A stretch of 64,000 nt of DNA from Parasphaerochaeta coccoides DSM 17374 (lineage in GTDB: Bacteria > Spirochaetota > Spirochaetia > Sphaerochaetales > Sphaerochaetaceae): contig NC_015436.1 in NCBI RefSeq assembly GCF_000208385.1, positions 372,001 through 436,000 of the forward strand. Direction: 5' to 3'. Numbering within the stretch: position 1 is the stretch's first letter; every line of letters starts with the position of its first letter. A model generated the notes under the pieces. That model was not told the DNA's origin and ran no database searches. It was given only the letters and a program-made list of their open reading frames with translations. This document shows, in pieces, positions 1,214 to 9,192 of this stretch. The position numbers and the translations under genes were made by a program.

Positions 1214-4066
1214 TTAAAAAATAATCTGTACAGGCGTTGTTCTTACGGAGGTATCGCCGCCGTTACCCAGTTGAGCAAAATTGTTCCGTCCTGTCGCCCA
1301 GAGCGTGCCGTCCTTTTTCAAAATCATCGTATGGAACCTTCCGGTGGAGACATCTGCAACATCATTACCCATGGAGGTAATCTGCACGGGTATGCTTCTG
1401 GAAGTTTCCGAACCGCTGTCACCCAGGCCCAGCTGACCAAATTCGTTGCCTCCAGTCGCCCAGAGCGTGCCGTCCTTCTTCAGGATCATCGTGTGATACA
1501 TTCCGGCGGAGGCAGCCTTGACATCAGTCATGAACCCGACTCCACCAGAACCCTTGACCTGCACAGGCATGTTTCTGTTATCCGTAGTGCTGTCACCCAG
1601 TTGACCAAATCCGTTGTATCCAGTCACCCAGAGCGTGCCGTCCTTCTTCAGGATCAACGTGTGATTGCCTCCGGCGGAGACAGCCGCGACATCAGTCCCC
1701 ATGGACGTGACCTGCACGGGCGTGCTTCTGTCGGTCTGAGTGTCGTCACCCAATTGCCCAGAATAGTTGCGTCCAATCGCCCAGAGCGTGCCGTCCTTCT
1801 TCAGAATCATCGTGTGATCGTCTCCGGTGGAGACAGCCGCGACATCAGTCATGAAGTCGTTAAGAGTGGTACTAGCCTTGACTTGCACGGGAGAAGTTCT
1901 GTTGCTCGTAGTACCGTCACCCAGTTGACCATAGCTGTTGAATCCAGTCGCCCAGAGCGTGTCATCCTTCTTCAGAATCATCGTATAGGAGTGTCCGGTA
2001 GAGACAGCCGCGACATCAGTCCCCATGAACGTGACCTGTGTGGGCGTGCTTCTGTCGGGTTCTTGGCTACCCAGGCCCAGTTGACCAAAATAGTTTTTTC
2101 CAGTCGCCCAGAGCGTGCCGTCCTTCTTCAAAATCATCGTATGACGCTCCCCGGTGGAGACAGCCACGACATCAGTCATGAAGTCGTTAAGAGTGGTACT
2201 AGCCTTGACTTGCACGGGAGTATATCTGTTGATCAGAGTGCCGTCACCCAGTTGACCATAGGTGTTCTGTCCAGTCGCCCAAAGCGTGCCGTCCATCTTC
2301 AAGATTATCGTGTAATAATCTCCGGCGGAGACTGCCTTGATCTTCACCAGCCACTGTGCATACAACGTCACATCATCGGCGGGCATGGTGAAGGACTCAC
2401 CAGCGACATATGAATCCCCACTGCTATCAATCTCGGTATTCCATCCGTAGAAGTAATGGATGTCCTTTTCCAATGTTCCCGGAGTCGGCAGTGTGACTTT
2501 GCATCCTTTATAGGTGACTACCCGTTCCGGTTCGTCTCCGCTCGTGGCTCCGTTGCCATCAAAGGAGACGCTGTATTGGTTCTCCACCCAGATTGCATAT
2601 AGTGTCACATCCTGTCCAGGAATCACGAAGGAGTCTCCGGCGGCATATGAATCTCGGCTGCCATCAATCTCAGTATTCCATCCGGCAAAGAAATAACCGC
2701 TCTTTTCCAGTGTTCCATTGCCCGGCAGCGTGAGCTGGCTTCCCTCATGAGCATACATCCGTCCCGGCGAACTGCCTCCCGTGGCTCCGCTGGCATCAAA
2801 GGAGATGCTGTATTGGTTCTTCTCCACCCAGATTGCATAGAGTGTCACATCCTGCCCAGGAATCATGAATGTATCACCAGCGGCATACTGGGTTCCGCTG
2901 CCATCAGCCTCGGTATTCCATCCGGCAAAGAAATAGCCGCTCTTTTCCAGTGTTCCGCTGCCCGGCAGCGTGATTTTGCATCCTTCATAGGTGACTACCC
3001 GTTCCGGTTCGTCTCCGCTCACGGCTCCGTTGGCATCAAAGGAGATGCTGTATGAAGTGGCATCTTCCCAGTTTTCACGGGCGCAGTCATCCCACGCCAC
3101 GATTCCCATGTCAATCGCGGCAACGGCGACATGGGATGTCGTGGTAGTGAGCATCATGTTGTAGACATGCTGCTTGCCCGCGTCAAAGTGAATCAGGGTT
3201 TCCTTGTTCTCCGCTACGGAAGACGGTGTCCATGTGTATGTAGTGCTGCTACCCCTGGCATCAGTGAGGACAAACTCCAGCTCCAAAGCATCCAGCAACT
3301 CCCGCGTGTGAGCCATAGGTATCAGCACGGCCTCGAACCTGCGCTTTCCCGCATTCTGGTCAGCTTGGCTGAGGGTGTCGGAAATATCCTTCATGTGAAT
3401 GGACGCAGCATCATCACCACGAGGAGTCACTGTCCCGGTATTCAGATTGATCGCAGCGTGCGTGGTGACGCCTTTGACCGTAGCCGTGAGCGTGGCGCCA
3501 TCTTCAGTAATGATAGCCTTATCGATGCTGTCGCTTGGGGCAATGTTGACAACCACGTGGGAGAGTATGTGGTCAAGCTTCAGCTGTACCATTGGCGTAT
3601 TGTTCTGTACAGTGTCGGTGTGTCCCCACAGGAAGTCAGCCTTTCCCGTATCCTGTTCCCCAAAATCCGGATAGACATCTATGGGCAGAGCCGAGGTGTC
3701 AGAGATGGATGACACATAAGGATAGTAGGAGATGAAGTCGAACGTGCTGTCCGCGCCAGCAGCGAAGTCATCCCACGTCAAGGTATTGGCATCATCGACA
3801 GGGGAGAAGCCGGAAATCGGACTGGAAGCATCGGCCCTGTACGCTTTATTGGCACGGGTGTCACTGGCGGCCAAGGCACCATGTTCTACCATGTAGATGC
3901 CGACTTCATCACCGGCTTGCCATGCGGAGTCAGCCATGACCTTGCGTCCGATCTCCGTGGTGAAGCGCACGTTGCTGGCGTGCGGAACCTCTACTTCGCC
4001 GGAACATGCAACAAAAACGAAAAGCATCAGGAAGATGCTTACGAACACACTAGCGTTCTTTCTCAC
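1214..4066 (-). CDS. Surface lipoprotein 1: fimbrillin-like domain, 3 InlB repeats, 7 RCC1 modules
   Basis: A 950-residue exported lipoprotein read from a GTG at 4066. This start is preferred over the upstream ATG at 4105 because AAGGAG lies six bases before it and it gives a normal signal peptide (MRKNASVFV, hydrophobic core, VFVAC lipobox). Residues ~25-335 resemble the Mfa-like/fimbrillin family of Bacteroidetes surface proteins ([24 protein letters not shown], and the VYNMMLTT segment). Residues ~339-575 hold three ~79-residue Listeria-Bacteroides (InlB B) repeats (SFDANGA, GWNTEADG, DVTLYAIW). Residues ~576-950 hold seven RCC1 modules ([19 protein letters not shown]). It is probably an adhesin or ligand-binding surface protein; the ligand is unknown. 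It is the last of three tandem paralogues and the longest. Confidence 0.85.
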   Translation of the reverse strand: MRKNASVFVSIFLMLFVFVACSGEVEVPHASNVRFTTEIGRKVMADSAWQAGDEVGIYMVEHGALAASDTRANKAYRADASSPISGFSPVDDANTLTWDDFAAGADSTFDFISYYPYVSSISDTSALPIDVYPDFGEQDTGKADFLWGHTDTVQNNTPMVQLKLDHILSHVVVNIAPSDSIDKAIITEDGATLTATVKGVTTHAAINLNTGTVTPRGDDAASIHMKDISDTLSQADQNAGKRRFEAVLIPMAHTRELLDALELEFVLTDARGSSTTYTWTPSSVAENKETLIHFDAGKQHVYNMMLTTTTSHVAVAAIDMGIVAWDDCARENWEDATSYSISFDANGAVSGDEPERVVTYEGCKITLPGSGTLEKSGYFFAGWNTEADGSGTQYAAGDTFMIPGQDVTLYAIWVEKNQYSISFDASGATGGSSPGRMYAHEGSQLTLPGNGTLEKSGYFFAGWNTEIDGSRDSYAAGDSFVIPGQDVTLYAIWVENQYSVSFDGNGATSGDEPERVVTYKGCKVTLPTPGTLEKDIHYFYGWNTEIDSSGDSYVAGESFTMPADDVTLYAQWLVKIKAVSAGDYYTIILKMDGTLWATGQNTYGQLGDGTLINRYTPVQVKASTTLNDFMTDVVAVSTGERHTMILKKDGTLWATGKNYFGQLGLGSQEPDRSTPTQVTFMGTDVAAVSTGHSYTMILKKDDTLWATGFNSYGQLGDGTTSNRTSPVQVKASTTLNDFMTDVAAVSTGDDHTMILKKDGTLWAIGRNYSGQLGDDTQTDRSTPVQVTSMGTDVAAVSAGGNHTLILKKDGTLWVTGYNGFGQLGDSTTDNRNMPVQVKGSGGVGFMTDVKAASAGMYHTMILKKDGTLWATGGNEFGQLGLGDSGSETSRSIPVQITSMGNDVADVSTGRFHTMILKKDGTLWATGRNNFAQLGNGGDTSVRTTPVQIIF

Positions 4067-4080
4067 TTTTTTCTCCTTAT

Positions 4081-4336
4081 CTTTCCCTGAAAAACCAAAA
4101 GTCATTCATCAAAACATAATGAAATGATGGGTTACTCTGGAAAAGTATGATGAATTGATGAGTTAATGTAGGGGATATCGGTGATGATTGGCGATTACCC
4201 GAAAGTATGATTTTGACGAAAAAGCATATAGTACTTTCGGGTTACTCGAATCTAAAGATGCGGATAGTGTCGCCTATGTTCCGTTTCAAACATGTGTAAC
4301 GCAAGAAAGCAAGAAATGGGAAGATTGTGAGAATGG
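4081..4336 (-). repeat. Upstream repeat element, copy A (leader of lipoprotein gene 1)
   Basis: About 256 bp almost identical to copies B (6760-6983) and C (8978-9192), each directly upstream of one lipoprotein paralogue. It runs from just upstream of the ribosome site through a dyad (4197-4242) to a purine-rich end. Copy A is joined directly to the 3' flank of gene 2. The conservation of noncoding sequence suggests either a shared promoter/leader or recent duplication. Confidence 0.85.
4197..4242 (-). promoter_or_regulatory. 11-bp inverted repeat in leader copy A
   Basis: ACCCGAAAGTA (4197-4207) and TACTTTCGGGT (4232-4242) are perfect inverted arms around a 24-base loop. The dyad is conserved in all three leaders. 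It could be a regulator-binding site or an RNA hairpin in the leader. No T-run follows it in the direction of transcription, so it does not look like a terminator. Confidence 0.6.
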
Positions 4337-4384
4337 AGACGACCTGTTGGTTGGCGTGTACGCCGGTATCTCCTCATGTTCCGG

Positions 4385-6745
4385 TCAGAAAACTACCTGT
4401 TCGGGCGTGCTTCTGTTGGTATTATCACTGACACCCAGTTGGCCGTTAGTATTAAATCCAGTCGCCCAGAGCGATCCGTCCTTCTTCTGGATCAACGTGT
4501 GATTGTATCCAGCGGAGACAGCCGCAACATCAGTCCCCATGAATGCGACCTTCACGGGAGTCTTTCTGTCGGTCTTATTGCCGACACCCAGTTGACCAAA
4601 ATTGTTCCGTCCAGTCGCCCAGAGCGTACCGTCCTTCTTCAGGATTATCGTGTAATGCAGTCCGGCAGAGACGGCCACGACATCAGTCATGAACCCGACA
4701 CCACTAGAATCTCTGACCTGCACGGGCGTGCTTTTGTTGTTCGTTATACCCGAAGTGCCGTCACCCAGTTGACCATATTGATTCCGTCCAGTCACCCAGA
4801 GCGTGCCGTCCTTCTTCAAAATCATCGTGTGGAAGCCTCCGGCGGAGACGGCCTTGACATTAGTCATGAAGTCGCCAAAAGTGGGACTGGCCTTGACTTG
4901 CACGGGAGTCGTTCTGCTGGTCGTAGTGCCGTCACCCAGTTGACCATCATAGTTACGTCCAGTCGCCCAGAGCGTGCCGTCCTTTTTCAAAATCATCGTG
5001 TGATAACTTCCGGCGGAGACAGCCTCGACATCAGAACCCATGGCCAAAACCTGCACAGGCGTGCTTCTGTCGGTTCCCGAACTGCTGTCACCCAGACCCA
5101 GTTGACCATCATTGTTCTGTCCAGTCGCCCAGAGTGTCCCGTTCTTCTTCAGAATCATCGTGTGGGAGGCTCCGGTAGAGACAGCCGCGACATCAGAACC
5201 CATGGACGAAACCTGCATGGGCGTGCTTTTGTCGATTCCCGAATCACTGTCACCCAGGCCCAGTTGACCATATTTGTTCTCTCCAGTCGCCCAGAGTGTG
5301 CCGTCCTTTTTCAAAATCATCGTATGCTTCTCTCCGGCGGAGACAGCCGCGACATCAGAACCCATGGACGAAACCTGCACGGGCGTGCTTCTGTCGGTAT
5401 TATCACCGACTCCCAGTTGACCAGCTTTGTTCTCTCCAGTCGCCCAGAGAGTACCATCAGTCTTCAGAATCATTGTGTGATAATATCCGGCGGAGACTGA
5501 CTTGATCCCCTTCACCAGCCACTGTGCATACAACGTCACGTCATCGGCGGGCATGGTGAAGGACTCACTGGCGGCATAGTGGCTTCCGTTGCCATCAGGC
5601 AGGGTATTCCATCCGTAGAAGTAATGGCTGTCCTTTTCCAATGTTCCAGGAGTCGGCAGTGTGACCAGGCTTCCCACATGAGCATACATCCGTCCCGGCG
5701 CACTGCCTCTCGTGGCTCCGTTGTCCCCAAAGGTGAGGCTGTATGCCTTTTCCGCTGCCCCGTTCACCTCGCTTCCGGTGTTCCAGTCCACTATCCCTAT
5801 GAGAATCTCCGCGACGGCGACTTCATTAGTATTCGTATTGAGCGTCATGTTGTAGACATGCGTCTTGCCGCTCTCCAAGACAATCCTGTACTCATCGGAG
5901 GACGCTACGCTGGAAGCAGCCCATTCATATGTCTCGCCCCCCAAGGTGAAACGCAGACCAAGAGAGGACAGGGCGGTAGTGTTGTCCGTCGGTATCAGCA
6001 CGGCCTCATAGCGCCGCTTGCCCGCAGTCCTCTCCGCATCCGTGAGCGTGCTGGAGATGTCCTTCATGACGACATCAATGTCGCTGGGGACGACAGGAGC
6101 CACATCTCCGCTGTCCAGGTCGATTGTTGCCTGCGTGTTCATGCCCGTGACCGTGGCGACAAGCGTACCGCCCGTGATGGCATCCTTATCAACGGTGGTA
6201 CTTGGCCCAACGTTGACAACAAGACGGGAGAGGGCATGACTGAGCGTCAGGCTGACCGTAGAGGTATTGTTCTGGACACCAGCCTTCTTCCCCCACAGGA
6301 AGTCAGCCTCTCCGGTATCCTGTTCCTCGGAACCCGGATAGACATGTATGGGCAGAGCCGTGGTATCAGCGATGGAAGACACGTAAGGATAATAGGCGAT
6401 GAAATCAAAGTATGTGATGGCAGGGGTGGAGATGTCATCCCATTTCAAGGGGTTGGAGGCGTCAACAGGGGAGAAGGCGGAGAAGTTGATGTCCGCCGTA
6501 TCCGCCACATACTTCACATTGTCACGGTCGGTCGTGGCGACAGTAGCCACGTCCTCACTGGCCTTAACCATGTAGATGCCGACTTCATCCCCGATACTCC
6601 AGCCGGAGTCAGCGGCGGCCTTGCGTCCTATCTCCGTGGTGAAGCGCACGTCGTCGGCGTGTGAAACACATAGGTTGCCGCTGCATGAAGCAAAGACGAA
6701 AAGCACCATGAGGATGCTTACAAGCACAATACTGTTCTTTCTCAC
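4385..6745 (-). CDS. Surface lipoprotein 2: fimbrillin-like domain, 1 InlB repeat, 7 RCC1 modules
   Basis: A 786-residue paralogue of the flanking genes, read from a GTG at 6745 with AAGGAGG six bases before it (an ATG at 6784 is also in frame). Signal peptide [10 protein letters not shown] with lipobox VFASC, then a fimbrillin/Mfa-like region to about residue 330, one InlB B-repeat (~335-412) and seven RCC1 modules to the C-terminus, which ends TPEQVVF. The three-fold InlB array of gene 1 is reduced to a single copy here. The terminator hairpin seen after genes 1 and 3 has lost its left arm, so read-through into gene 1 is likely. RCC1 modules normally form a beta-propeller blade each; seven would close one propeller. 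Confidence 0.85.
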
Positions 6746-6759
6746 TTTCCCCTCCTTAT

Positions 6760-6983
6760 CTTTCCATGAAAAACCAAAAATCATTCATCAAAATTTAATG
6801 AAGTGATGGGTTAATGTAGGGGATATCGGTAGTAGTGACGATTACCCGAAAGTATGATTTTGACGTAAAAAGATATAATACTTTAGGGTTACGCGAATCT
6901 AAAGATGCGGATAGTGTCGCCTGTATTCCGTTTCAAACGTGTGCAACACAAGAAAGCAAGAAATGTGAAGATTATGAAAATGG
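6760..6983 (-). repeat. Upstream repeat element, copy B (leader of lipoprotein gene 2)
   Basis: Second copy of the leader element. It lacks 33 bases present in copies A and C. The missing segment lies between the near-identical short repeats GATGGGTTA and GATGAGTTA, so it looks like a slippage or recombination deletion. The dyad is kept with one mismatch. Confidence 0.85.
6844..6889 (-). promoter_or_regulatory. Inverted repeat in leader copy B (one mismatch)
   Basis: ACCCGAAAGTA (6844-6854) faces TACTTTAGGGT (6879-6889). Ten of eleven positions pair; the single C-to-A change is in the right arm. Spacing between the arms is again 24 bases. Confidence 0.55.
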
Positions 6984-6997
6984 GGATGCCTACACGT

Positions 6998-7021
6998 CAT
7001 CAGTCCATCAGTCCATCAGTC
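6998..7021. repeat. Tandem 8-bp repeat, three copies
   Basis: CATCAGTC occurs three times head to tail in the gap between lipoprotein genes 3 and 2. The rest of this gap (6984-7154) shows no gene or other recognisable signal. Confidence 0.8.
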
Positions 7022-7154
7022 GGCTGACGTCCGTTCAAGTGAAGGCAATTGTGCGAAAAATTCTTGGCGGTACTAAAAAGTTCAGGCAATGTCTTTTAAT
7101 CATATACAAGAAACAGCAAACAGCCGAGCACGAGGAACATTGCTATGGGGATGA

Positions 7155-7197
7155 ACCGGCGCAACGGAACGACTTGTTGGTCAGCGTGTGCGTCGGT
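7155..7197 (-). terminator. Stem-loop after lipoprotein gene 3
   Basis: ACCGGCGCA (7155-7163) faces TGCGTCGGT (7189-7197), eight Watson-Crick pairs and one G-T type mismatch. It lies 17 bases after the stop and is homologous to the hairpin at 1150-1196. No T-run follows. Confidence 0.45.
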
Positions 7198-7214
7198 ATC
7201 TCCTCATGTTCCGG

Positions 7215-8963
7215 TCAGAAAACTACCTGCATGGGCGTGCTTCTGTGGGTTCCCGAACCGCTGTCACCCAGACCCAGTTGACCGCAAATATTCTGTCCAG
7301 TCGCCCAGAGTGTGCCGTCCTTTTTCAAAATCATCGTATGCTTCTCTCCGGTGGAGACGGCCACGACAGGATTGCCCGGATCAGTATTCATGGATGTGAC
7401 CTGCACGGGTGTGTTTTTGTCGGTTCCCGAACCGCTATCACCCAGACCCAGTTGACCATGCTGGTTGAATCCAATCGCCCAGAGCGTCCTGTCATTCTTT
7501 AGAAGCATCGTATGATAGGCTCCGTTAAAGACAGCCGCGACATCAGTCATGAACCCGACCCCACCAGAACCCTTGACCTGCACGGGCGTGTTTTTGTCGG
7601 TTCCCGAACCGCTGTTACCCAGACCTAGTTGACCATAATAGTTTTCTCCAGTCGCCCAGAGCGTACCGTCCTCTGCCAGAATCATCGTGAAATTGTATCC
7701 GGTGGAGACTGACTTGACCTTCACCAGCCACTGCGCATACAACGTCACGTCATCTGCGGGCATGGTGAAGGACTCACCGGCGGCATAGTGGCTTCCGTTG
7801 CCATCAGGCAGAGTATTCCATCCGTAGAAGTAATGGATGTCCTTTTCCAATGTTCCAGGAGTCGGCAGTGTGACCAGGCTTCCCACATGAGCATACATCC
7901 GTCCCGGCGCACTGCCTCTCGTGGCTCCGTTGTCCCCAAAGGTGAGGCTGTATGCCTTTTCCGCTGCCCCGTTCACCTCGCTTCCGGTGCCCCAGTCCAC
8001 TACCCCTATGAGAATCTCCGCGATGGCGACTTCATCCGTCTTCGTATTGAGCGTCATGTTGTAGACATGCTGCTTGCCTTTGTCAAAGTGAATCAGGTGT
8101 TCATCAGAAGAAACTACGGAATCCGCTGTCCATGTGTATGTACCAGCACCAATACCACCGGTCAGGACAAACTCCAGGCTCACGTTATCCAGGGCAAACG
8201 TGTTGTCCACAGGTATCAGTACAGCCTCAAAACGGCGGTTCCCTGCGGTTCTTTCCGCAGCCGTAAGGGTGTCGGAAATGTCCTTCATGACGACATCAAT
8301 GTCGCTGGGGATTACAGGGGTCGCATCTCCGCTGTTAAGGTCGATTGTTGCCTGAGTGTTCAAGCCTCTGACCGTAGCAGTAAATCCACCGGTGGCATCA
8401 TTGATAGCCGTAGCATCGACGGTCGTGCTGGGAGAGATGTTGACAATCAGGCGGGAGAGCATGTGGTCAAGCTTCAGATGCACCGTCGAGGTATTGTTCT
8501 GTACATTGTCGGTGCGTCCCCACAGGAAGTCAGCCTTTCCGGTGTCCTGTTCCCCGGAACCCGGATAGACATTTATGGGTAGGGCGGTGGTATCAGTGAT
8601 GGATGATACATAGGGATAGTAGGCGATGAAGTCGAAGTGTGTGATGGCAAGGGTGGAGATGTCATCCCACTTCAAAGGGTTGGAGGCATCTGCTGCGGAG
8701 AAGTTGATGCCCGCCGTATCTGCCACATACTTCACATTGTCACGGTCGGTCGCGGCGACAGTATCCACGTCCTCACCAGCCTCCACCATGTAGATGCCGA
8801 CTTCATCCCCGATACTCCAGCCGGAGTCAGCGGCGGCCTTGCGTCCTATCTCCGTGATGAAGCGCACGTCGTTGGTATGTGGGACATATAGGTTGCCGTT
8901 GCATGAAGCAAAGACGAAAAGCACCATGAAGATGCTTACAAGCACAATACCGTTCTTTCTCAC
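7215..8963 (-). CDS. Surface lipoprotein 3: fimbrillin-like domain, 1 InlB repeat, 3 RCC1 modules
   Basis: A 582-residue paralogue, first in transcription order. The GTG at 8963 matches the starts of the two sister genes; its ribosome site (AGGGGGG) is weaker, and an ATG at 9002 is also in frame. It has the same lipoprotein signal (FASC), fimbrillin-like N-terminal region with GDEVGIYMV and YYPYVSS, and one InlB repeat almost identical to that of gene 2. Only three RCC1 modules follow, too few to close a seven-bladed propeller. The protein ends TPMQVVF. The paralogues therefore differ mainly in the number of repeat modules, as expected from recombination between homologous modules. Surface exposure is inferred from the lipobox and domain types. 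Confidence 0.85.
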   Translation of the reverse strand: MRKNGIVLVSIFMVLFVFASCNGNLYVPHTNDVRFITEIGRKAAADSGWSIGDEVGIYMVEAGEDVDTVAATDRDNVKYVADTAGINFSAADASNPLKWDDISTLAITHFDFIAYYPYVSSITDTTALPINVYPGSGEQDTGKADFLWGRTDNVQNNTSTVHLKLDHMLSRLIVNISPSTTVDATAINDATGGFTATVRGLNTQATIDLNSGDATPVIPSDIDVVMKDISDTLTAAERTAGNRRFEAVLIPVDNTFALDNVSLEFVLTGGIGAGTYTWTADSVVSSDEHLIHFDKGKQHVYNMTLNTKTDEVAIAEILIGVVDWGTGSEVNGAAEKAYSLTFGDNGATRGSAPGRMYAHVGSLVTLPTPGTLEKDIHYFYGWNTLPDGNGSHYAAGESFTMPADDVTLYAQWLVKVKSVSTGYNFTMILAEDGTLWATGENYYGQLGLGNSGSGTDKNTPVQVKGSGGVGFMTDVAAVFNGAYHTMLLKNDRTLWAIGFNQHGQLGLGDSGSGTDKNTPVQVTSMNTDPGNPVVAVSTGEKHTMILKKDGTLWATGQNICGQLGLGDSGSGTHRSTPMQVVF

Positions 8964-8977
8964 TTTTTCCCCCCTAT

Positions 8978-9192
8978 CTTTCCCTGAAAAACCAAAAATC
9001 ATTCATCAAAACATAATGAAATGATTGGTTAATCTGGAAAAGCATGATGAATTGATGAGTTAATGTAAGGGATATCGGTAATAGTGACGATTACCCGAAA
9101 GTATGATTTTGACGTAAAGAGATATAGTACTTTCGGGTTACGCGAATCCAAAGATGCGGATAGTGTCACTTAAGTTCCGTTTCAAGCGTGCA
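8978..9192 (-). repeat. Upstream repeat element, copy C (leader of lipoprotein gene 3)
   Basis: Third copy of the leader, full length through the 33-base segment missing from copy B. Similarity fades at about 9192. The stretch 9193-9311 beyond it shows no gene. Confidence 0.85.
9093..9138 (-). promoter_or_regulatory. 11-bp inverted repeat in leader copy C
   Basis: ACCCGAAAGTA (9093-9103) and TACTTTCGGGT (9128-9138), perfect arms with a 24-base loop, the same geometry as in copies A and B. Confidence 0.6.

Follow-up and report, generated by a model that had tools for sequence, protein, structure and literature searches.

A paired 19-bp DNA site as a probable activator operator shared by a fimbrillin-like lipoprotein family in Parasphaerochaeta coccoides

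Three paralogous lipoprotein genes of Parasphaerochaeta coccoides (also Sphaerochaeta, Spirochaeta) DSM 17374, a coccoid spirochaete from the termite gut, are each preceded by a noncoding leader that carries the same dyad, which raises the question of whether the dyad is a DNA site for a shared regulator or a hairpin of a leader RNA, the two readings offered in an earlier note. The genome is a single contig of 2,227,296 bp (2.23 Mb), and the window, the 64,000-nucleotide stretch analyzed here, comprises its bases 372001–436000. All three genes lie on the minus strand, at 1214..4066 (copy 1), 4385..6745 (copy 2) and 7215..8963 (copy 3), and their products share the fimbrillin-like domain Mfa_like_1, the Listeria-Bacteroides repeat List_Bact_rpt (three in copy 1) and RCC1 repeats. 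The likely start codons, read from the sequence, are GTG, with AAGGAG upstream in copy 1 and AAGGAGG in copy 2; in copy 3, the ribosome-binding site AGGGGGG (8975–8969) and the GTG codon (8963–8961) together occupy 8961..8975 of the minus strand. A literature search found no paper on the P. coccoides genome, nor any that deals with spirochaete lipoproteins of the fimbrillin-like kind.

The core dyad, ACCCGAAAGTA and TACTTTCGGGT separated by 24 nt, was present in all three window leaders with a single change in one arm, at plus-strand positions 4197–4207/4232–4242 (copy 1), 6844–6854/6879–6889 (copy 2, which carries the change) and 9093–9103/9128–9138 (copy 3). The earlier note had described exactly this spacing and this one change. 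Arms with at most one mismatch matched nine times in the window, compared with a mean of 0.55 and a maximum of 3 in shuffled sequences, and the full pattern had two exact matches against 0.00 expected. The leaders could be aligned over ~210–260 bp, in agreement with the common leader reported before, with a stretch of ~31 nt missing from copy 2. The 11-bp core was only part of what is conserved: the conserved unit of each arm is ~19 bp, TWACCCRAARGTATKATWT. On the minus strand, the gene-proximal and distal sites of this extended form occupy 4195..4213 (core 4207–4197) and 4226..4244 (core 4242–4232) in copy 1, and 6842..6860 (core 6854–6844) and 6873..6891 (core 6889–6879, changed to ACCCTAAAGTA on the gene strand) in copy 2. 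In copy 3, the proximal site (9091..9109) has the core TACTTTCGGGT at 9103–9093 with GGGTAAT toward the gene, and the distal site (9122..9140), inverted with respect to the proximal one, has the core ACCCGAAAGTA at 9138–9128.

When the copy-3 leader was compared with its own genome, at least 40 places were matched; 11 were long matches, and most of the others were confined to the dyad. The half-site ACCCRAARGTATTAT with at most one mismatch was found at 80 places genome-wide, 75 of which fall in the 650 bp that precede one or other of 49 Mfa_like genes, regions that together make up ~1.3% of the genome. With up to two mismatches allowed, 97 matches were obtained versus 17 for a reversed-pattern control. 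An upstream site pointing toward the gene precedes 41 of the 49 Mfa_like_1 lipoprotein genes, which are scattered round the chromosome, and the orientation of the proximal site is constant in 41/41; the genome-wide half-site search placed no site upstream of the other eight. The search for further copies and their downstream genes that the earlier note had called for thus revealed the dyad throughout the genome, and the motif is distributed as expected of a regulon, upstream of many co-functional genes and rare elsewhere.

The arrangement of the sites varies. Among 36 inverted dyads in the genome stretches round the copies, the spacer is 24 nt in 22, 34 nt in 13 and 23 nt in one. A single, inherited insertion of 10 bp appears to account for the 34-nt spacers; therefore, the helical phasing of 24 and 34 nt was not counted as independent evidence. 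In a divergent lipoprotein group (genes 1570438, 1847683 and 2170111), the same site is used as direct repeats 33–34 bp apart: the spacing is 34 bp before 1570438 and 33 bp before 1847683, and four direct repeats exactly 33 bp apart lie upstream of 2170111. Elsewhere, the site at 2192335 precedes a gene for a 485-aa lipoprotein in which no Mfa_like domain was detected, and that at 1177924 precedes a short fimbrillin-like remnant of 115 aa. The dyads at 1919058 and 1166095 have no fimbrillin-like gene downstream, the latter also lacking a −10 at the usual distance, and both are probably relics.

The position of the proximal site was fixed with respect to a predicted promoter. A −10-like TAnnnT begins 25–27 nt after the GGGT of the proximal site in 16 of 18 sequence clusters, and the same spacing was seen behind distal arms in one of 15, counts and spacings that are not fully independent because the clusters are paralogues. 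At both proximal exceptions, 1166140 and 2119065, a downstream family gene is missing. In the window genes, the predicted −10 is TACATT on the minus strand, at 4165..4170 in copy 1 (26 nt after GGGT), 6813..6818 in copy 2 (25 nt) and 9062..9067 in copy 3 (25 nt); the large subfamily has TATACT or TACACT, and other clusters have TATATT, TAAAAT, TACTAT, TATTTT, TACGTT or TACAGT. A fixed position and orientation toward the promoter, itself predicted, therefore holds for 16/18 clusters and 41 genes. If −12 is taken as the first base of the hexamer, the end of the proximal site falls at ~−38, at the position of a −35 box. No −35 consensus was seen at the predicted promoters, and a sigma70 scan of the gene strand of the copy-3 leader gave no promoter scoring at least 9/12. 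A divergent promoter driven from the distal arm was considered and rejected, since no −10 occurs at the corresponding distance.

Could the dyad simply have been carried along without a regulatory role, by recent duplication or gene conversion or as a mobile or recombination sequence? That the genes were duplicated is clear, and the leaders of subfamily 1 are ~90% identical, as such carriage would predict. Between the two dyad subfamilies, however, the arms are 92 and 86% identical, whereas the adjacent flanks on both sides are 23–34% identical, near chance. Moreover, where no family gene follows the site, the −10 spacing is lost, and the divergent group has direct repeats yet keeps the orientation and spacing of the proximal site. 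Absence of any regulatory role is hardly credible in the light of these findings.

A second explanation places the dyad in the transcript, where it would form a leader RNA hairpin and serve as an attenuator, a riboswitch-like element or a stability element. Single copies do fold well (z −4.0 and −4.1 versus shuffles for two dyads). In 25 distinct dyads, however, 337 of 425 cells were paired, compared with 337.07 ± 0.81 after the arms were randomly re-dealt, which indicates that there is no covariation between the arms. The commonest variants break pairs, namely A.C at arm position 8 in 13/25 distinct dyads and T.C at position 13 in 15/25. Where the same site occurs as direct repeats, the hairpin cannot form, and those leaders fold no better than shuffles (z −1.1 and +1.4). 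No poly-T follows the stem. In the Rfam search, nothing exceeded the gathering score except a tRNA elsewhere, with weak matches at E 2.1 and 5.6; thus, neither compensatory changes nor a known RNA family support a structured leader, and the statement of the earlier note that no known regulator motif matches agrees with this comparison, which covered Rfam only.

The location of the promoter bears on the same question. The likely −10 is found on the gene side of the dyad, so that transcription would start between the dyad and the gene; the dyad itself is then probably left out of the transcript and would be a DNA control sequence rather than leader RNA. A transcription start upstream of the dyad could be provided by a block, TTgAAA-N16/17-TATT/TATC-CATC, which is partly conserved and in both subfamilies precedes the distal site by ~50 bp (for example, window 9163–9185), with 48% identity between them. 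Its TTGAAA in copy 3 lies at 9180..9185 on the minus strand, and the block might be a second promoter, in which case the dyad would fall inside the transcript. Taken together, these results make the leader RNA hairpin very unlikely. Of the two roles proposed earlier, that of a shared regulator site is strongly supported by the genome-wide regulon, the fixed −10 spacing, the use of the site in inverted and direct arrangements and the conservation of the arms above their flanks, and that of the hairpin is not sustained.

We therefore favor a regulator operator. A pair of ~19-bp DNA sites would be bound by one putative sequence-specific regulator that jointly controls the large fimbrillin-like surface lipoprotein family. 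The predicted transcription start would lie ~38 bp beyond the end of the proximal site, which would take the usual place of a −35 box; farther upstream would be the second site, either inverted, the 11-bp cores being 24 or 34 nt apart, or as a direct repeat at 33–34 bp. Because ~41 related genes have the site upstream of their predicted promoters at a constant distance, one regulator probably switches the whole set. A −10-like hexamer without a recognizable −35 makes an activator most likely, and we infer that the regulator recruits RNA polymerase from the −35 position. We consider it probable that the dyad is the operator of such an activator, and we hold its role as a DNA site with greater confidence than the direction of control.

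The opposite sign of control, in which the sites bind a repressor or a xenogeneic silencer that keeps an acquired lipoprotein family off, was also weighed. A site beside the −35 region can block polymerase as well as recruit it, and the positions occupied by a repressor or a mixed regulator would be much alike. Helically spaced paired sites suit looping repressors, as in the case of NadR and its operators at nadA of the meningococcus (PMC2791445). The lack of a −35 consensus in the predicted promoters fits dependence on an activator instead. In addition, the group-3 gene 1996312, which has no site, carries a perfect TATAAT at the aligned −10, as expected if a stronger core promoter compensates for the missing site; this one case is consistent with the other genes depending on an activator. 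Repression or silencing is unlikely on this evidence, and activation remains the preferred mode.

As to the regulator, the genome encodes 17 AraC-type helix-turn-helix proteins, four of OmpR type and one clear protein of CRP/FNR type. The 19-bp asymmetric matrix, the occurrence of the site in inverted and direct arrangements and its distance of 25 nt from the −10 are as expected of AraC-type sites, and the architecture, asymmetric half-sites that are either inverted or direct, most resembles that of AraC-family activators. None of the 17 AraC-type genes is linked to the site. One of them, 64819, combines a LacI-type sensor with an AraC domain and lies between two lipoprotein loci, upstream of ABC-transporter genes. 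A CRP/FNR regulator was tried and, on the one clear protein, rejected: this protein has the FNR-like recognition helix ETLSR, which by the generally known helix-to-motif rule for this family is unlikely to fit the motif. A second match barely exceeded the cut-off (28.7 versus 27 bits). FNR sites have the form TTGAT-N4-ATCAA and differ from the 19-bp site.

Outside this genome, the exact dyad was found in none of 138 other genomes of the same family, and only two of these have Mfa_like genes, with no site nearby. A dyad scan of ~85,000 species, from which this genome's own records were possibly excluded, returned only unrelated inverted repeats, in 25 stretches mostly from Pseudanabaena. They were rejected as members on half-site scores of at most 17, versus at least 24 for members. 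Inverted repeats of the form ACCCRAARGTA-N20-40-TACYTTYGGGT recur in several Pseudanabaena genomes and are perhaps a repeat element of these cyanobacteria.

A further level of control may act within the genes themselves. Twenty-four genes with the dyad begin with ATG(AG)n, where n is 9–47 (for example, 1097420, 1222619 and 1708057); a 25th gene with n of 4 was excluded because another in-frame start is present, and the three window genes have no such tract. Genome-wide, overlapping (AG)8 matches number 240 on the forward and 84 on the reverse strand, which equal the sums of n − 7 over the 24 genes, indicating that the genome holds no further (AG)8 tract. All 24 tracts of (AG)8 or more thus start genes of the fimbrillin-like lipoprotein family. 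The lipoprotein can be read in frame from the ATG in 6/24 genes and not in the other 18/24, and the three frames are represented by 6, 9 and 9 genes. Repeats in the coding region that shift the frame are therefore present in 24 genes of this one genome of the genus, and their confinement to start codons of the family with 6/24 in frame makes translational phase variation by slipped-strand mispairing of (AG)n likely. The tracts would turn translation on or off at random, gene by gene; internal starts might still permit expression of out-of-frame genes.

Other repeats were noted in the family. In genes 1847683 and 1996312, a long octanucleotide repeat, (CCCAGAGT)n, occupies the start of the reading frame and might serve as a second kind of phase-variation tract. 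The ribosome-binding site of copy 3 contains a run of 6 G (window 8969–8974), and the subfamily-1 copies at 1654077 and 244324 have 8 and 9 G in or beside theirs; slippage of such runs at subfamily-1 ribosome-binding sites could vary translation. The placement of the genes is also uniform: of the 34 inverted-dyad genes, the 10 below 0.6 Mb are all on the minus strand and the 24 above 0.9 Mb are all on the plus strand. Given that dnaA lies at 1.2 kb and that the GC skew changes sign between ~0.5 and 0.9 Mb, 34/34 are head-on to replication; four genes of the direct-repeat or lost-site group are co-directional with it. Head-on placement perhaps speeds variation of the 34 genes.

We tentatively suggest, as one real possibility, that this commensal spirochaete has a two-tier antigen switch, in which the regulator turns on ~41 genes and the (AG)n tracts pick the translated members at random. 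If so, each cell would present a different surface. A local oddity of three leaders has in any case become a testable genome-wide regulon of one motif, one putative regulator and ~41 paralogous surface proteins, many of them with a repeat tract of their own, and the 19-bp motif offers a direct bait in a search for the regulator. Most known cases in which a large variable surface family is controlled jointly come from pathogens; here such control would operate in a spirochaete whose relatives lack the motif and, for the most part, the gene family.

The candidate operator can be compared with several known systems. RhaS binds with its proximal half-site over the −35, and direct repeats are found among its relatives in the AraC family. 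As with RhaR and RhaS of E. coli, two asymmetric half-sites stand in inverted repeat here. RhaR recognizes two 17-bp half-sites that are inverted and 17 bp apart (PMC3870299), whereas the spacer between the extended sites is ~12 or 22 bp in P. coccoides, the motif is unrelated, and the putative regulon consists of dozens of surface lipoproteins. Class II activator promoters of CRP/FNR, with the site at −41.5, are similar in that the weak symmetry axis of the proximal site would fall at ~−42.5 if the −10 starts at −12, again with no −35; unlike those systems, the only clear CRP/FNR protein here has the ETLSR helix, and the motif is not of FNR type. The nadA gene of Neisseria meningitidis encodes a phase-variable adhesin whose promoter has several NadR operators, so that a surface protein is subject both to a regulator that recognizes a specific sequence in several operators and to switching by a repeat tract, as would be the case here (PMC2791445). 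There, however, the repeat lies between the promoter operators and NadR represses one gene, whereas in P. coccoides it is found at the start codon, and ~41 paralogues have a common site. Closest to the repeat tracts are oipA and other genes of Helicobacter pylori, in which dinucleotide CT repeats at the 5' coding end switch the frame of outer-membrane proteins at the cell surface (PMC10564699); in P. coccoides, by contrast, the genes encode fimbrillin-like spirochaete lipoproteins, (AG)n follows directly after ATG, and a common candidate operator lies upstream.
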